IMG/VR virus record: IMGVR_UViG_3300045993_000681
Location: 1-20,679 of that record
Direction: 5' to 3' (one strand)
Source: a virus
Length of the DNA stretch: 20,679 nt
The notes beneath the pieces were generated by a model. It was not told the origin of the DNA and did not search any database. It saw only the letters and a list, made by a program, of their open reading frames with translations. Position numbers and translations under genes: made by a program. Below, in pieces: positions 3,571 through 11,721 of this stretch (position 1 is its first letter; each line of letters opens with the position of its first letter).

Positions 3571-3939
3571 TCAGAGTCTCCCGCTCAGGACCCGCGCGGC
3601 TCCGCGGAAGCCAAGGCCGAACCGGCGCGCCCGGCGTGCGATGCCGCCAGCCAGGCACACGGCGACGACGGAGCGAGCCCCGCCGGCCTTCGCCGCCCGG
3701 AGCAGGCTCGAGGTGATCTCATCCACCGCCCGGCTCCGCTCCCGGAGGCCGGCGGCGGGGTTCGTAATGTAGCCGTCGAGCAGCGCGATGCTGCTGTCGG
3801 TTGCGTAGAGGAACCCGGCAGCAACGTCGGGCTCGATCTGCCCCGCCGCCGGTAGCTGGTCGAGCGCCACGCCAGCAAGGCCGTGAGCCAGGCGCCATCC
3901 GTTGACCTCTGCAAGGTCGCTCTGGACGAAGGCGCGCAT
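3571..3939 (-). CDS. Small virion-region protein, possibly GNAT-acetyltransferase-like
   Basis: A 122-residue protein whose ATG (3939-3937) overlaps the TGA of the nozzle-like gene as TGATG, so it is very likely translated by coupling. The frame is open further upstream, but that part lies inside the nozzle-like gene and has a non-protein-like Arg-rich composition. Notable segments are GFLYATDSSIALLDGYITNP (residues 42-61), a helix with REXSRAVDEI-like character, then RSVVAVCLAGGIARRARRFG (89-108). The order 'TDS, small hydrophobic strand, helix, strand, then ARRARRFGLGF' resembles short phage-encoded GNAT-fold proteins that sit next to tail genes. I see no clear acetyl-CoA P-loop (Q/RxxGxG/A), so it may be a degenerate or purely structural version. 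The fold assignment is a weak inference; the gene call itself is sound. Confidence 0.8.
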   Translation of the reverse strand: MRAFVQSDLAEVNGWRLAHGLAGVALDQLPAAGQIEPDVAAGFLYATDSSIALLDGYITNPAAGLRERSRAVDEITSSLLRAAKAGGARSVVAVCLAGGIARRARRFGLGFRGAARVLSGRL

Positions 3940-6900
3940 CAGCTCGTGCTCCGGGAGGCCGGTAGCTTGTAGGCGCCGCGCTTGGCCGCGACCTCGAAGG
4001 TCAGCGCCGTGACGTCGAGGTAGGCCCCCGCGACGCTGGCCTGCGACTCGGTCAGTGTGAGCTGGATCGCCTCGCACTTCTGCTGCGTCGTGAAGATCCG
4101 CTCCTGCCAGTCCGCCCCGGTCGTCGGAAACGCCACGGTCTGCACGGGCGTGGTGTTGTCCAGGTCCACGTAGACCTGCAGCGTGAGGTTCGACGCCGAG
4201 AGCGAGGCCCCGTCGAGCATCAGCTTGCGGATGCGCTTGAACCCCTGGAGCCCCGCCAGCGAGATCCAGGACGTGGTGAACGACAGGGGGATGAAGCTCC
4301 CCTCGTCGGTGTACGTCCCGATCGCCTCGACCGCGACGACACCGGCCGAGCGGAGCCGCGCGTATTGGCTCTTCCAGATGAGCGCGTCAACCTGGCTCGT
4401 CGTGAATACCGACCACTGCCCGACGAAGTAGTCGTAGACGAGCGTCTGCGCGGCCTGCGCAAACCGCACCTGGTTCGTGGACGGGACGAGATTCGCCGCG
4501 ACGATGGCCTGCCCGTTGTAGCTCTCGACCGGAGCCCCGACGTAGCGAGCCACGAGGTCGCGCCCGAGCAGGTAGACGCCCTTCTGGCTCTGGAGCATGA
4601 GCCCGTCGGGGACGACCACGACGCTTTCCGGGTAGGTGCAGCCGCAGTCCGAGGAGACGAGCATCGAGTCTGACCAGTCGCTCTGCGCGCCTGTCGAGTC
4701 GGGACCCTGCCCGGTGATGGCAAAGATGCGGTCGGCCTTGAAGACGACGAGCTTGTCGTCCAGGCTAGCCAGCGCGGTGCAGGGGCCGCCGCGCGGGTCG
4801 ATGTTGAGCGTCAGCGACGCGGAGAACTCCACCGGGGCGCCCGGGGTCGCCTGCTTCGAGTACCAGAGTTCGAGCGGGCTCTCTGACGAGATGCCGATGA
4901 CTCGCGACCGATGGATGGTGGTGGGGCCGAGGGCGGGCGGGGCGTCGTTCTCCAGGACGCCGCCGGTCGTGTAGAGCTGCGCACGACCGAGGATGGTGGC
5001 GTCGGCGAGCGTGTCGGCCCAGGTGACGGAGTCGCTCGAGGTGCTGTTGAGCAGGGAGTCGGAGACGGCTCCGGTGTTGTTGAGCAGATAGAAGACGGTC
5101 CCGTTCGAGATCGTGCGGTAGACGCAGATTCGGACGCCCGCCTTCTGCGTCAGCCGCAGGGTGGGGATCGTGAGCGTGACCGTGGTCGCCGGAGCCCCGA
5201 CCACGACCGAGAGCGCGATGCTGGGCGAGGAGCGGTGGACGAGCCCCTGTGCGTCGGTCCACTCGTAGCAGGCGGCGTACTGGTAGGTCCCCGCCGCGAC
5301 GGCTCCGGCTCCGGCCGCCTGCGTCGCCGAGAGCATGTATGGCGGGTAGTGGTAGCCCAGCTCGGCCGCCGCGTTCCCGTCGTAGTTGTTGACCACCGCC
5401 CCGCCGAGTTGGGCGCTCTGCGCCAGCTCCGTGCGGGACAGGGCGCCCGCCCCGGAGTGGTCGAGCGAGACGAGTTCGATCGCCGACTGGTACGACAGGA
5501 AGGTCCCCGACGTGCCGGGCTCGATCGTGAAGCGGGTCACCTGGGCCGAGGGGAGGTAGGCCTTGAGGCTGACCACCGACGACTCGGGCGTGACGTACGG
5601 GCGGACGCCGGACAGGAGCGCCAGGTTGCCCGTGGGCCGCCCGGCGAACGTTCCCGGGGCGATCTTGGCGACGACCAGTCCGGCGCTGTTGAGGACGAAC
5701 TGCGTGTTGACCGTCGCGCCCGCCTCGCCGCTCACGGCGCTGCCGGTCGAGAAGGCGACAGGGAGATACCAGTCCCCGTTCGCGGTGACCTGGTAGGGCT
5801 TGCCGGCGGGGGATGCGCCGCGGGCGAAGGTGACGGCGGTCCCCATCGAGTAGGAGACGCCGTAGGCCACCTGGAGGCGGATGAGGTCCCGGGCTGTCCT
5901 GCTGCCGTCGTAGTAGTCGACGAAGAAGAGAAGCGAGGAGCCAGCGGTGCTGTTGCTGATCCCCGTGACGTTCGAGAAGTGCCCACCGCCCGTCGCGTCG
6001 AGCGTCTGCGCCGCCGCGACCGCCGCGAGGCCCGAGGAGACGACCGCGAACTGGGCCGTCGTCCCGCCGGTCAGCGTCCAGCCGATCGCGATGTTCCCGT
6101 TGAAGGCATCGGCGAAGATGCAGCACGACGAGACGGCCGTCGACGAGACCGACAAGTGCGAGCCGAACCCCGGCGAGGCTGGCGAGCCCTTAAGCACCGT
6201 GACGCCGCCGGCCTGGCAGGACATCGCGGCAAAGAGGCTCCCGCCCGAGTAGGTGACGTCGTAGCTGGGCGTCGTGGCGTTGACCTGCGTGACCGTCAGG
6301 CTGTTGCTGTCCACCCGCACGGCCGCCGCTGCGGCGAGCGTGGCGTAGGGGATGGAGATGCAGTAGAGGCCGAAGATCGCCCCGTCGACGTAGTAGAGCA
6401 GGAAGCGGTCCGAGGTCGCGATGCACTTCGGCGCGAACGAGGTGGAGGGGAGCGCCACCTGGCCGAGCAGCGTGGTCCCGGTGTTCGTGTCGATCACCGA
6501 GTAGATGATTCCGCCGAGCGACCAGGAGAACACGGGCGACCACTGCTCGGCGGCGCACAGCATCAGCCCCGCGCTGCTCACAGAGGCGTCGTACCCGGCG
6601 AGCGACTGCCCGGCCGCTGGCGACAGGGCCGGCAGCGTCGAGAGCGTCGCGGGGACGAGGCGGCCCCTGTTCGCCCACCCGCTCTGCGCGGAGGAGTAGG
6701 ACAGCAAGAGCGCGCCATCCGCGACGAGCAGCTCCTGCTGGCGGGTGAACATCGCTAGGCCGTTCGTGAGACCCGAGCCGCCCGCGACGCCAGTGCTCGG
6801 CAGCGCGGTGTGGCCGTTGCGCTTCGTGATCCGCTGCGTCGTCTGGAACGTCGCGTTCGTCAGGCTCACGAGTTCGCCCGGCGCGCCGGCCTTGTTGTTG

Positions 6901-6962
6901 CTCTTGACGTTCATGCCCTTCGCGAACACGACGGGCACGATCTGCTTCTCAAGGCCGCTCAT
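3939..6962 (-). CDS. Tail nozzle-like / tail hub structural protein (beta-rich, ~1007 aa)
   Basis: The ATG at 6962-6960 overlaps the TGA of the upstream repeat-protein gene (ATGA), giving MSGLEKQIVPVVF and 1007 residues; an earlier in-frame start would add 14 residues inside the upstream gene and is less likely. The N-terminus (FAKGMNVKSNNKAGAPGEL, then a short 'TKRNGHTAL' segment) has the pattern of phage proteins that begin by listing parameters to be shown as tail beta-propellers. The body is Ser/Thr/Gly/Val-rich beta sequence. Around residue 560-580 is GTYQYAACYEWTDAQGLVHR, a fibronectin-III-like insertion typical of phage tail proteins. Downstream, DDKLVVFKADRIFAITGQGP looks like a propeller blade. 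By size and position after the adaptor and before the ejection proteins, it would match the nozzle (role of T7 gp12 or P22 gp10). This is inferred from architecture; no sequence match was run. Confidence 0.85.
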   Translation of the reverse strand: MSGLEKQIVPVVFAKGMNVKSNNKAGAPGELVSLTNATFQTTQRITKRNGHTALPSTGVAGGSGLTNGLAMFTRQQELLVADGALLLSYSSAQSGWANRGRLVPATLSTLPALSPAAGQSLAGYDASVSSAGLMLCAAEQWSPVFSWSLGGIIYSVIDTNTGTTLLGQVALPSTSFAPKCIATSDRFLLYYVDGAIFGLYCISIPYATLAAAAAVRVDSNSLTVTQVNATTPSYDVTYSGGSLFAAMSCQAGGVTVLKGSPASPGFGSHLSVSSTAVSSCCIFADAFNGNIAIGWTLTGGTTAQFAVVSSGLAAVAAAQTLDATGGGHFSNVTGISNSTAGSSLLFFVDYYDGSRTARDLIRLQVAYGVSYSMGTAVTFARGASPAGKPYQVTANGDWYLPVAFSTGSAVSGEAGATVNTQFVLNSAGLVVAKIAPGTFAGRPTGNLALLSGVRPYVTPESSVVSLKAYLPSAQVTRFTIEPGTSGTFLSYQSAIELVSLDHSGAGALSRTELAQSAQLGGAVVNNYDGNAAAELGYHYPPYMLSATQAAGAGAVAAGTYQYAACYEWTDAQGLVHRSSPSIALSVVVGAPATTVTLTIPTLRLTQKAGVRICVYRTISNGTVFYLLNNTGAVSDSLLNSTSSDSVTWADTLADATILGRAQLYTTGGVLENDAPPALGPTTIHRSRVIGISSESPLELWYSKQATPGAPVEFSASLTLNIDPRGGPCTALASLDDKLVVFKADRIFAITGQGPDSTGAQSDWSDSMLVSSDCGCTYPESVVVVPDGLMLQSQKGVYLLGRDLVARYVGAPVESYNGQAIVAANLVPSTNQVRFAQAAQTLVYDYFVGQWSVFTTSQVDALIWKSQYARLRSAGVVAVEAIGTYTDEGSFIPLSFTTSWISLAGLQGFKRIRKLMLDGASLSASNLTLQVYVDLDNTTPVQTVAFPTTGADWQERIFTTQQKCEAIQLTLTESQASVAGAYLDVTALTFEVAAKRGAYKLPASRSTS

Positions 6963-7717
6963 GAGCGCGGCCCCGTGTAGACGGTCAGGGGAGCCGCGAC
7001 CCACGCGGAGCCGCTCCAGGCGACGAACGGGAGGCCGGAGATCAACCCGCCGCCCCCGCTCGCTCGGCCGGGAGCAACGACAGCAGTCGCCGTCAGCGGC
7101 GCAAGGCCGACCGTCGCGCTGGACGACCAGCCGATGGCCCGACCAGGCGCCTGCGAGAACACGCCCTGGCCCGCGGCGAGGCCCCTAGACGCGCCGCCGG
7201 TCGCCTTGCCAGGAGCGAGAGAGAGCGCCCCCGATACTGAGGCCGCGCCGATGGTGGCGCCGCCTGCTGCGCTTGCGTGACCAGGTGCGACGACGAAGGA
7301 CCCAGCAGCCGCCGTCGCGCCTGCCGTCGCCCCTCCCGTGGCCTTGCCCGGCGCCTGCGCGAAGGACCCGGAGGCGGCGGCCAATCCACGAGCAGCCCCG
7401 CCCGTTGCATGGCCGGGGGCCTGCGAGAGCGAACCGGCGAGCGCGGCGGCCCCGCGGGTAGCCCCTCCTGCCGCATAACCGGGCGCCAGGGCCAGTGCTG
7501 CGGACAGCGCAGAGGCGCCCTGCGTTGCGCCGCCGGTCGCCTTCCCGAGAGCCTGCGAGAACGTGCCGCTGGCGGGAGAAGCGGCGCGAGTAGCTCCGCC
7601 CGCGGCGCGTCCCGGCGCGACGACGAACGCGCCCGAGGCGGGCGCCAGTGCGGCCGTTGCCCCGGTTCCGCCGCCGCCGCCGAGGAGTGCTAGGAGGAGT
7701 GACAAGAGGATTGCCAT
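6959..7717 (-). CDS. Secreted or anchored protein of nine 22-residue Gly/Ala/Pro repeats
   Basis: A 252-residue protein from ATG 7717-7715, two bases after the upstream TAG; its own TGA overlaps the next start. A GTG at 7744 in frame would add nine residues (MGRGRLLLV). The N-terminus MAILLSLLLALLGGGGG is strongly hydrophobic and could be a signal peptide or membrane anchor. Residues 20-221 are nine tandem repeats of about 22 residues, roughly A-T-x-G-A-x-A-x-x-G-x-F-x-x-A-P-G-x-A-x-G-G. The A-P/L-G motif recurs with spacing 22, 22, 22, 22, 22, 24, 22, 25. The C-terminus FVAWSGSAWVAAPLTVYTG carries a W-x-G-S-A-W-V motif that I know from short phage neck and tail proteins. The repeats suggest a fibrous or triangular beta-helical stalk, but no function can be assigned. 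It sits between small structural genes and the nozzle-like gene, so a virion role is likely. Confidence 0.8.
   Translation of the reverse strand: MAILLSLLLALLGGGGGTGATAALAPASGAFVVAPGRAAGGATRAASPASGTFSQALGKATGGATQGASALSAALALAPGYAAGGATRGAAALAGSLSQAPGHATGGAARGLAAASGSFAQAPGKATGGATAGATAAAGSFVVAPGHASAAGGATIGAASVSGALSLAPGKATGGASRGLAAGQGVFSQAPGRAIGWSSSATVGLAPLTATAVVAPGRASGGGGLISGLPFVAWSGSAWVAAPLTVYTGPRS
7040..7660 (-). repeat. Nine coding repeats with a 66-base period
   Basis: This is the DNA that encodes the 22-residue repeats of the Gly/Ala/Pro protein. The period is 66 bases, with two longer units of about 72 and 75 bases. The copies keep the protein pattern but differ at many third codon positions, so they look older than a recent slippage expansion. 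Limits are approximate. Confidence 0.7.
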
Positions 7718-7719
7718 GA

Positions 7720-8376
7720 CTAGTAGGAGGCGACCTCGGCCCACGCGATGTCGAAGAACCAGGCGATGCCGTAAGAGGTCACGTTCAGAACGCGGTTCTC
7801 GGCCACGATCCCCTCGTTCTGCGCGAGTACGAACGGGTGCGTCCCGTTCACGTCATCGAGCGCATCGAGCGGCCCCCATATGGTGGTCGTCCCGATCGCC
7901 GCCGCGACGTTGTAGGGCAGTGTGGCGAACGGCTGCGAGTCCTTCGTGGCCGTGCTGCCGGTCATCCCCGCCGCGACGCCCGTCACGGTAAGGAAGCGCG
8001 GCTGCGCTCCGCCAGGGAATGCCGCCATCGTGGTGCGCTTGACGGAGGCTGCTGGCGTCGTCGCGTTGACCGTGCTTACGACGGTGAAGCTCGTGGCGCG
8101 GTAGAGGTCGACGCTGTTTTCCTGCGCCGTGCCGGCCGCTACCTGGAGCGCGCGGATCGTGATGCGAGTTGGGACGATGAGGTTCGTGCCGCTGTTGCGT
8201 AGCTCCAGCAACCGCGAGTTCGCCGTCTGCGCCGCCGCGGAGAGGATGCGCGTCGTGAAGCGGTAGTGGCCGAGCGCGCCGTACTCCAGCGGCTTGACGT
8301 GGGTGTGGGCCGCGCGGAACGTGGTCCCACCGACCTCGCCGACGACACCGCCGTTGCCCTGGATCTGGATCGCGAT
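7720..8376 (-). CDS. Phage virion protein, probably starting at a non-canonical ATC codon
   Basis: The frame is open from just after the TGA at 8403-8401 to the TAG at 7722-7720, but it holds no ATG, GTG or TTG before a TTG at 8211, deep inside clearly protein-like sequence. Reading from ATC at 8376-8374 gives (M)AIQIQGNGGVVGEVGGTTF, which looks like the N-terminus of a familiar phage structural family that starts with M-x-IQIQGNGG. AGGCAGGG lies about 8 bases before that ATC. The product would be 218 residues. The middle and end are beta-rich (TRITIRALQVAAGTAQENS, ending in WFFDIAWAEVASY), consistent with a head decoration or neck protein. If the only canonical start (TTG, 8211) were used, the protein would be 163 residues and lose the conserved front. 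A sequencing error or point mutation of ATG is the alternative. Function is inferred from context. Confidence 0.75.
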   Translation of the reverse strand: MAIQIQGNGGVVGEVGGTTFRAAHTHVKPLEYGALGHYRFTTRILSAAAQTANSRLLELRNSGTNLIVPTRITIRALQVAAGTAQENSVDLYRATSFTVVSTVNATTPAASVKRTTMAAFPGGAQPRFLTVTGVAAGMTGSTATKDSQPFATLPYNVAAAIGTTTIWGPLDALDDVNGTHPFVLAQNEGIVAENRVLNVTSYGIAWFFDIAWAEVASY

Positions 8377-8400: not shown

Positions 8401-8745
8401 TCAGTTCCACACCCACCCCACAGTCCACTGCCCGTAGATGCGCGTGCCGCGCCCGGCCGCGCTGCCCTTCCCGATTGGCGCGGGGTTGATCCCGCCCTCG
8501 TTCAGTTGGGACGTGTTCACCGCGTAGATCGTGAAGCCCGTACCGGCGACGACGTTGCCCGCCTGCACTTGGATCGTCTCCAGCAGGTGTTCGTCGGCCG
8601 TGTGGTCCGCCGTCGCGGTCGGGACAAGCCACGCCTCGACCAGCGAACCGGCGAGGATACCGGCCTGCCCGGTGACGGCGACGCTCGTGTCCGAGCGGCC
8701 CGGGAATGCGTCGAAGTTGAGCGTGGTCGTCCCCTGCGCGCCCAT
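8401..8745 (-). CDS. Small structural protein, 114 aa
   Basis: The ATG at 8745-8743 shares a base with the TGA of the upstream gene (TGATG), giving MGAQGTTTLNFDAFPGRSD and 114 residues. A much longer frame upstream exists but consists of Arg/His-rich out-of-frame sequence over two real genes and is rejected. The sequence has Thr/Val-rich beta segments (TSVAVTGQAGILAGSLVEAW), then IQVQAGNVVAGTGFTIYAVN, and ends in Trp-rich YGQWTVGWVWN. The pattern 'GSLVEAW..P.....H' is one I have seen in short phage head/neck proteins encoded near tail genes. No enzymatic motif. Its place inside a coupled run of virion genes suggests a minor head, neck or tail component. Exact role unknown. Confidence 0.8.
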   Translation of the reverse strand: MGAQGTTTLNFDAFPGRSDTSVAVTGQAGILAGSLVEAWLVPTATADHTADEHLLETIQVQAGNVVAGTGFTIYAVNTSQLNEGGINPAPIGKGSAAGRGTRIYGQWTVGWVWN

Positions 8746-9179
8746 CAGGTGAGCCTGATCTGACCGACGCCCGAGCTGGGGATCGTGACGGTGAAGGTGC
8801 CGCCTGTGGAGACGACGGGCACGCTGCCGGTGTCGGCGAAGCTGATGACGGCTACTGCTTTGTTTGCGCGAGTCGAGTTGTAGATGAGCGCGCCGTCGCT
8901 GGAGATCGTGGACGTGGGCCACGTCGCGTCGTTCCAGTCGATCGACGCCGTCGAGCCGGTCAGCGTGTTCGTGTAGCCGGCGAGCGTCGCGCCGCCGGCC
9001 GAATAGCCGGTGCCGCTCGCCTCGTCGGTGCTCATCGCGGAGTAGTTCGTGGTCGCGGCGCCGAAGGTGCCGGCCACGGCGGTCTTGAAGAGGGCGATCT
9101 TGTAGACGTCGGTGCTGACGTGCGTGCCGTCGAGCACCTCCTGCTTGTAGCTGTTGCAGAGCGCAGTCGTGATGGCCAT
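8745..9179 (-). CDS. Phage structural protein of the 'MAITTALCNS' type, 144 aa
   Basis: It starts at ATG 9179-9177, with AGGA about 8 bases upstream and nine bases after the previous stop; its TGA overlaps the next ATG. The 144 residues begin MAITTALCNSYKQEVLDGTH, followed by VYKIALFKTAVAGTFG and SGTGYSAGGATLAGY. This combination (AITTALCNS.K.E.L.G.H, then an IAL strand, then S-GTGY-AGGATL, then GALIYNS) is a recognisable widespread phage structural family, seen in many podovirus- and siphovirus-like genomes, whose exact place in the virion I do not know. The later part (FTVTIPSSGVGQIRLT) is a beta-rich end. The match is from memory of the family pattern, not from a search. Confidence 0.88.
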   Translation of the reverse strand: MAITTALCNSYKQEVLDGTHVSTDVYKIALFKTAVAGTFGAATTNYSAMSTDEASGTGYSAGGATLAGYTNTLTGSTASIDWNDATWPTSTISSDGALIYNSTRANKAVAVISFADTGSVPVVSTGGTFTVTIPSSGVGQIRLT

Positions 9180-10435: not shown

Positions 10436-10837
10436 CTACGTGGGAGCGTTGATCGTCAGGTTCGCCGTGCTCGCGATCGTGACCGCGCCGTCGCTCGTGT
10501 AGACGATGGCCCCGACCGTGTAGACGTCGCTCGTCGCCGTCGCCGGGAACCCGCCGCTGATGCCGGCGGGGGCGTAGGCGTTGATCCCGAAGTTCACGAC
10601 CACCGAGCCCGAGCCGGGGACCGTGTAGGTCGCCCCGCCGGGCAGGATGGGCGCGGAGTAGTTGACCGGCACGCTCGAGCCAGCGCCGCTCACGCCGTTC
10701 GCGGTGATCTGCGGCGTGATGGCGAGGATCTGAACGGGCCCCGCCACCGAGTTCGAGACCGTCAGCGCCACGTTGACGTTGACGTTCCTGGTTACCGTCG
10801 ACTGCGGACCGAGAGCCACTGATGCGGTGATCGCCAT
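10436..10837 (-). CDS. Ig-like beta-rich virion protein, second copy of a tandem pair
   Basis: A 133-residue protein starting MAITASVALGPQS at ATG 10837-10835, with GGGAG five bases ahead overlapping the region just after the previous stop. It is Ser/Thr/Val/Gly-rich and aligns end to end with the gene immediately upstream: both start M-x-IT, share an ANG...SVP segment, an FGI..AP.G..GFP segment, and end in TANLT(I/V)NAPT. Such short immunoglobulin-like beta proteins between the capsid and adaptor genes often decorate heads or form head fibres. Decoration is inferred from fold type and position only. Confidence 0.82.
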   Translation of the reverse strand: MAITASVALGPQSTVTRNVNVNVALTVSNSVAGPVQILAITPQITANGVSGAGSSVPVNYSAPILPGGATYTVPGSGSVVVNFGINAYAPAGISGGFPATATSDVYTVGAIVYTSDGAVTIASTANLTINAPT

Positions 10838-10846
10838 GATGGCTCC

Positions 10847-11251
10847 CTAAGTCGCGGTGGGTGCGTTGACGGTGAGGTTCGCGGTCGCGGCCGTGGCCGT
10901 GGAGCCATCCGACACGGCGCACTGCGCGCCGATCGTGATGACCTCGCTGGCCTGGCTCGACGGGAAGCCGCTCGTGGGGCCGCTCGGCGCGAGGCCCGCG
11001 ATCCCAAACGGCAGAGCCAGGGTGCCGCCGCCGGAGGCGATCGACAGGTTCTGCCCCTGGCTGATGGCGGGCCTCCCGAGCGCGATGGGAACGCTCTGTG
11101 TGACCGCCCCGCCGTTCGCGACGGCGGTCGGCTCACAGAGGGTCACGGTGACCACGCCGGCCCCGTTGTTCGTGATGGTGCAGACCGCGTTGGAGACCTG
11201 TCCACGGGTCGTCGTGGACGGGGTCAGCGTGATGGCGGCGGTGATCGTCAT
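10847..11251 (-). CDS. Ig-like beta-rich virion protein, first copy of a tandem pair
   Basis: It starts at ATG 11251-11249, two bases after the TAG of the 155-residue gene; the longer frame through 11614 is a shadow of that gene. The 134 residues begin MTITAAITLTPSTTTRGQVS and include ICTITNNGAGVVTVTLCEP-like alternating beta strands, then PFGIAGLAPSGPTSGFPSSQ and an ending TANLTVNAPTAT. It is paralogous to the next gene downstream. Differences include two cysteines (in AVCTIT and TLCEP) and a third in GAQCAV that the sister protein lacks. The 'TNNGAGVVTVT' piece resembles surface-displayed Ig-like domains. A capsid decoration or head-fibre role is likely but not proven. Confidence 0.82.
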   Translation of the reverse strand: MTITAAITLTPSTTTRGQVSNAVCTITNNGAGVVTVTLCEPTAVANGGAVTQSVPIALGRPAISQGQNLSIASGGGTLALPFGIAGLAPSGPTSGFPSSQASEVITIGAQCAVSDGSTATAATANLTVNAPTAT

Positions 11252-11253
11252 GG

Positions 11254-11721
11254 CTAGAGCGCCGAGGAGTTCTGGAGGACGATCTTGATGTTCAGCACGT
11301 CGCCGCTGACCGGGTCCGTCGCCGCGTAGGCGGGGCCGGCTGCGAGGCCGAGCGTCGTGAACTTGATCGCGGGGGCCGCTGCCGTCACGTCGGTTCCCGT
11401 CGTCCACAGCCCGATCAGCGCAGTGGTTGGGAGGCCCGTCGCGTTGCTGACGGACGCGCGGAACGAGACGAACCGCTGCCAGGTGTCCTGCAGCGTGAGC
11501 AGGTACACGCCAGCCGACACGCGGGAGATCGACTTGACCCCCTCCGCCCCGATGGCGTACGGCCCGCTGCCCGAGGTCGGGGCAGCGGTGTAGGTGCGGC
11601 TGCTTGGGTTCCACTTCTGCAGCGTCGGGGCACCCGTAGCGCCGATGTTGACGCGGGCGTAGATCGTGACGATGCCCTTCACGAGTGCGCCCTGCTGGAT
11701 CGTTGTCAGCCTGTTGGCCAT
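11254..11721 (-). CDS. Small virion protein following the major capsid gene, 155 aa
   Basis: ATG 11721-11719 is preceded by GAGGAG at a six-base spacing, a strong ribosome binding site, 24 bases after the capsid stop. The protein starts MANRLTTIQQGALVKGIVTI, continues with a beta-rich middle (SAGVYLLTLQDTWQRFVSF) and ends NIKIVLQNSSAL. The pattern 'G.Y.ltL.D....f.s...' followed by 'DV....l.I.i.l.NSS' is typical of short phage head proteins that directly follow capsid genes. A decoration or head-stabilising role is plausible. No other motif was seen. Confidence 0.82.
   Translation of the reverse strand: MANRLTTIQQGALVKGIVTIYARVNIGATGAPTLQKWNPSSRTYTAAPTSGSGPYAIGAEGVKSISRVSAGVYLLTLQDTWQRFVSFRASVSNATGLPTTALIGLWTTGTDVTAAAPAIKFTTLGLAAGPAYAATDPVSGDVLNIKIVLQNSSAL

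Follow-up and report, generated by a model that had tools for sequence, protein, structure and literature searches.

What does the Gly/Ala/Pro-rich repeat protein encoded at positions 6959-7717 of an uncultured phage do, and is it tied to the place in which it was found? The window analyzed here is the whole 20,679-nucleotide stretch, a 20.7-kb uncultured virus record. An earlier note on this DNA had read the product as a signal-anchored protein of nine repeats and proposed a stalk or sheath component next to the tail nozzle. We examined the gene, its neighbors and its counterparts in other viruses.

Repeat gene and its units

The gene and its parts were delimited as follows:

6959-7717, minus strand: gene for the 252-aa repeat protein, starting with ATG and closing the cassette described below
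7679-7717, minus strand: hydrophobic leader MAILLSLLLALLG, resembling the family leader MSLLLALQG
7055-7663, minus strand: nine 22-residue units (aa 19-221)
7663-7598, 7597-7532, 7531-7466, 7465-7400 and 7399-7334, minus strand: units 1-5
7333-7262 (24 aa), 7261-7196, 7195-7130 and 7120-7055, minus strand: units 6-9
6962-7054, minus strand: 31-aa C-terminal tail containing WSGSAW, pLDDT below 50 in the model

The nine units of about 22 residues were confirmed: the lag-22 autocorrelation reached a z of 10.06, a value that none of 5,000 shuffles equaled at any lag between 5 and 79 (best 4.68), and in a separate test of leader proteins the period-22 tandem repeat (z 10.9) exceeded all 500 shuffles. 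Unit pairs have 54% of their residues in common. Ala2, Ala16, Gly18, Ala20 and Gly22 are kept in all nine units and Pro17 in eight, and position 13 is Phe or Leu in eight of nine. The strict spacing of the A-P-G motif claimed earlier has to be qualified at two points: unit 6 carries a two-residue insert and unit 9, the most diverged, is offset from unit 8 by three residues. The repeat is indeed not of the Gly-x-y type, with Gly at columns 1, 5, 11, 18 and 22 of a unit whose length is not a multiple of three; a collagen-like protein was rejected for the same reason, Gly not occupying every third residue in the nine units. The hydrophobic N-terminus and the C-terminal W-SGSAW segment are both present. 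A search of 165 records for the WSGSAW-type motif W.G.[AST]W gave 12 matches, the window being counted twice (itself and its copy L001), and one match besides the window lay in a fiber-like context (L143).

TRF found no 66-bp DNA array at the repeat region, and the same residue in two units used the same codon in 34% of 429 comparisons, against 37% expected from the codon use of the ORF. Unit-to-unit identity at codon positions 1, 2 and 3 was 0.64, 0.73 and 0.32. The repeat thus exists at the protein level only, a further argument for the minus strand as the coding strand, and its persistence across units with random codons indicates an old repeat maintained by protein-level selection. The ATG lies 2 nt past the stop of the upstream gene, and the stop overlaps the start of the next gene as ATGA (6962-6959). 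ORF 6959-7717 is a real gene with a real, old repeat.

Gene neighborhood in the window

Three genes precede the repeat gene and a large one follows it:

8745-9179, minus strand: slot 1, phrog_644 family protein, from a PHROGs match and synteny
8401-8763, minus strand: slot 2, a small protein of the TxDFGAxPG type (TTTLNFDAFPG in the window) and the cassette's most constant member
7720-8376, minus strand: slot 3, predicted jelly-roll protein, its extent taken from homology to other loci
3939-6962, minus strand: large structural protein downstream, nozzle-like, with weak PHROG matches to internal virion and virion structural proteins

The order from 9179 to 6959 is the same in six other loci (L148, L152, L156, L158, L159 and L163). 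As annotated, slot 3 starts at TTG 8211 and encodes 163 aa (7720-8211), a start that would lose its conserved N-terminal domain; homology extends the gene to about 8376, and translation from 8400 recovers the N-terminal domain seen in L105. The codon at the homologous start (8374-8376) reads ATC, where relatives have ATG. The downstream gene matched phrog_511 ("internal virion protein") at 5.6e-7 and, weakly, phrog_3287 (virion protein), and the nozzle profile found nothing below E 0.98 among PDB sequences. Elsewhere in the window, 10436-10837 and about 10847-11245 are apparent paralogues, both matching the same relatives (e.g., L015 7676-8479).

Database searches and nearest relatives

The repeat protein gave no match in Pfam or PHROGs, including their curated tail fiber families, at E up to 1, and none in NCBIfam, PDB sequences or phage isolates, in agreement with the earlier view that the repeat is of no recognized class. 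Relatives of the phage were collected by the major head protein. Among the 100 loci with a head-protein match, neither the repeat protein nor any of slots 1-3 had a blastp match at 1e-3, and the slot between the adaptor and the nozzle-like gene (L002-L101) was highly variable, occupied by a fiber-like protein of 214-448 aa, by a small protein or by nothing. The fiber-like protein often encoded there has an N-terminus such as NMxLTLPxxG. In L015, which gave the best match (55%) to the small head-region gene 11254-11721, the slot contains a 403-aa frame. A sheath component fixed beside the nozzle finds no support in relatives whose corresponding slot holds other proteins or nothing. Since the closest kin are devoid of the cassette, it was probably acquired by the lineage of the window phage.

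A recurring cassette in other uncultured phages

Relatives of slot 3 were found at 40 loci. An MSLLL-type leader gene follows slot 3 within 2.5 kb in 16 of the 40 and within 25 nt in 12, with L113/L114 and L120/L121, pairs whose members are the same or almost so, counted singly. The cassette runs from slot 1 (phrog_644 or a PF23140 GP4-fiber-I-like protein) through the TxDFGAxPG gene and slot 3 to the leader gene, whose products make up a cassette-end family defined in this analysis.

The viral collection was also scanned with the leader DNA alone, ignoring neighbors; this recovered 17 loci, 14 encoding proteins of 145-421 aa and three encoding only 19-45 aa. The TxDFG gene was present in 12 of them (L148, L152, L153, L156-L159, L162 and L163, plus L160, L161 and L164); among non-redundant loci the count is 9 of 14, L160 and L164 being contigs known from the slot-3 search and the L161 protein being that of L157. 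Of the 30 leader loci tabulated, 21 have a same-strand TxDFG gene no more than 5 kb upstream, and seven of the other nine contain less than 1.5 kb of upstream sequence. L150 and L151, with less than 1.4 kb each, have a slot-3 relative instead. A different context is that of L154, where the leader gene sits among head-tail connector-like genes; at 1237-2190 it encodes the leader and 32-residue repeats, joined to an apparent tail-terminator-type domain.

That the repeat gene closes a recurring cassette of four genes is well supported. Searches of open-licence papers gave no description of the leader, the cassette or the window repeat; phage isolates gave no match for slot 3 or for L105, L106 or the slot-3 protein of L156, and no isolate with the leader gene turned up among those searched; the genome collection gave no confirmed relative of slot 3 or of the GxYxLTGxA consensus discussed below; and PDB sequences gave nothing convincing for slots 1 and 3.

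Leader peptide and start codon

From the ATG start, the hydrophobic stretch of the window protein is AILLSLLLALL, 11 residues. The segment SLLLALLG begins four residues after the ATG and has Leu where the family has Gln (SLLLA.QG); an in-register TTG at 7705 would place SLLLALLG straight after the start, as in MSLLLALQG. Synonymous codon changes at the Ser and at the three Leu positions over 26 rows indicate that the peptide itself is kept; conservation of SLLL in these rows follows from their selection by SLLL, while the codon variation does not. Judged from sequence, the hydrophobic N-terminus of the window protein probably corresponds to the short leader of the cassette-end family (MSLLLA.QG) found in other phages, and the signal anchor assumed by the earlier note finds no support. 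A GTG start at 7744 would give the N-terminus MGRGRLLLVMAILLSLLLALL; among the possible starts it alone adds a basic segment, and we found nothing that favors it.

Repeat bodies of the leader proteins

Twenty-eight leader proteins were tested for repeats, with duplicates and three short frames excluded. Tandem repeats were significant in 22 (0/500 shuffles); the top lags included a period of 20-22 in 16 of these and one of 30-35 in six; no significant repeat was found in L104, L108, L109, L115, L124 and L158. A count by eye gave about 12 of the 28 with a C-terminal acidic stretch and then a run of leucines, a feature that the window protein does not have. Such termini, seen in L105, L113, L121, L122, L124, L129, L150, L152, L158 and L163 among others, might form a second docking end. 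Another variant, L140:1225-4956, is a 1,243-aa leader protein in which SAEAFGTP-type repeats flank other domains.

The earlier note had suggested looking for the same repeat in related phages, and had named the lack of a conserved repeat there as counting against its reading. A profile of the window unit, run against 12,175 six-frame ORFs from 166 records, matched only the window and its own copy L001, so for these particular units that counter-evidence is present, but the architecture recurs with other repeats. In profile-profile comparison with 15 other repeat proteins, the top probability was 3.5% (L163), and seven of 20 column-permuted controls scored at least as high as L163. The score was equaled by none of 20 controls for L159 and by one of 20 each for L107 and LTG_ct, yet these alignments spanned no more than one or two columns, and we claim nothing from them. 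As the window units cannot be aligned by profile to those of other members, we do not claim homology of the bodies. At the level of sequence, the leader is common and the bodies differ from virus to virus.

Structure predictions

An AlphaFold2 model built from the repeat protein sequence alone showed regular short strands in each unit, with a mean pLDDT of 54.9 and a pTM of 0.50, and a Foldseek search of the PDB with this model returned nothing below E 0.9. The resulting beta-solenoid is a low-confidence prediction. A passage of PMC11795689 describes confident but false beta-solenoids given by AlphaFold2 for repeat sequences.

The C-terminal domain of slot 3, modeled from 37 sequences, is predicted to be a jelly-roll-like beta sandwich (pLDDT 82.9). 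Foldseek gave nothing under E 0.2 in the PDB; VIA-align paired the model with viral jelly-rolls at a best Z of 6.1, a likeness that may reflect merely a common arrangement. Three entries of a viral library matched under E 0.001, two of them uncharacterized phage proteins and one nameless.

Proposed role and alternative explanations

Three contexts bear on function. In L156 and L157, slot 1 scores above the Pfam cut-off for PF23140, "Podophage GP4 fiber I protein gp80", and GP4 is a podophage with a known virion structure. In Octadecabacter Antarctic DB virus 2, the neighbors of a slot-2 relative are a DNA-ejection protein, a tail fiber protein and a virion protein of phrog_3287. Microcystis phage MJing1 encodes a "tail repeat like protein" just after a phrog_644 relative. 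Together, these contexts point to the fibers or tail end of short-tailed phages.

We infer that the repeat protein acts as an elongated virion fiber or whisker. It looks like an interchangeable virion fiber part and not a membrane-anchored sheath; of the stalk or sheath idea, a structural, fiber-like role in the tail region is still the best guess, and the fixed sheath part finds no support. Our main reading, with a probability of roughly 45%, takes the gene for the variable end of a mobile structural cassette of four genes in tailed phages and its product for a leader-docked repeat body. The protein would consist of a short hydrophobic leader, a tandem-repeat body and a C-terminal tip. The leader would serve as a docking peptide fixing the protein to a constant virion partner, most likely the TxDFGAxPG protein of slot 2, since this accompanies both types of slot 3. 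The repeats would build an elongated, probably beta-rich stalk, their number fixing its length, and the tip or the stalk surface would meet the host or the surroundings. Bodies would be exchanged while the socket stays.

If this is right, a structural cassette that is nameless in the libraries searched keeps a short peptide and replaces its repeat body wholesale; leader and cassette position would then be a simple annotation handle for many "hypothetical" repeat proteins of uncultured phages, and the peptide-socket pair a testable model for the swapping of fiber-like parts. The vague "signal-anchored sheath" becomes a specific, checkable prediction for the window protein. A broader and distinctly tentative extension makes the leader a docking plug of general use: phages unrelated to one another might share a constant TxDFGAxPG socket that takes any acquired repeat protein via a six- to nine-residue peptide, whole bodies being exchanged in one step and the peptide-socket pair kept. 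This would be a modular attachment system hitherto undescribed.

The best-surviving alternative, which we consider somewhat unlikely, is a flexible, mostly disordered Gly/Ala/Pro linker or mucin-like spacer, in which the repeat would set contour length only and no fixed fold exists. Gly and Ala make up 53% of the repeat region, Asp, Glu and Cys are absent from the protein, and the low model confidence, together with the false solenoids mentioned above, agrees with this. However, Phe/Leu at position 13 in eight of nine units and the fixed Ala-Pro-Gly-x-Ala-x-Gly, both kept with random codons, suggest more than a constraint on composition.

An internal virion protein ejected into the host envelope with the DNA, its leader being a membrane-active peptide, is less probable. 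It would explain the hydrophobic leader, the leucine-rich C-termini of many members and the phrog_511 match of the next gene, but the slot-1 proteins of two cassettes are fiber proteins and the leader of most members has just about six hydrophobic residues.

Quite improbable is a signal-anchored or secreted protein. The N-terminus from GTG 7744 does resemble a signal anchor, yet a gene starting there would run into slot 3 by 25 nt, while related leader genes begin just past the slot-3 stop and their products have no basic N-terminus. Finally, a spurious reading frame in GC-rich DNA can be dismissed: other long frames do overlap the ORF on both strands, but the protein-level repeat with saturated codons in practice already refutes it, and the tight gene packing with its ATGA overlap and the cassette synteny also speak against it.

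Comparison with known systems

The podovirus isolate ctVRi840 (MW202742, 5147-5737; L144:3839-4429) encodes a GxYxLTGxA repeat protein, annotated as hypothetical; genes for a "phage stabilization protein" and a tail adaptor-like protein lie nearby. Its repeat also has period 22 and a similar G-[SA]-[FY] start, and by eye we suspected that the window repeat belonged to this class; the candidate was rejected, as the unit profile scored 0.5 bits and 81 of 484 column-permuted controls were as high.

The "tail repeat like protein" of MJing1 likewise has tandem repeats and lies directly after its phrog_644 relative, but its repeat differs from that of the window and it has many PHROG tail-fiber matches, against none for the window protein. 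PF23140 Gp80 (podophage GP4 fiber I) is a neighbor of the repeat protein in L156 and L157, not the repeat protein itself; in the window, slot 1 is phrog_644 instead, and the repeat protein has no Pfam match.

Compared with the leader-type cassette-end proteins (e.g., L105, L107, L159 and L163), for which we found no database name, the window protein has repeats that do not align with theirs and is devoid of the acidic, leucine-rich tail of many members, but it has the same last-gene place, an N-terminus resembling the SLLLA-type leader and, like them, repeats of about 20-22 residues.
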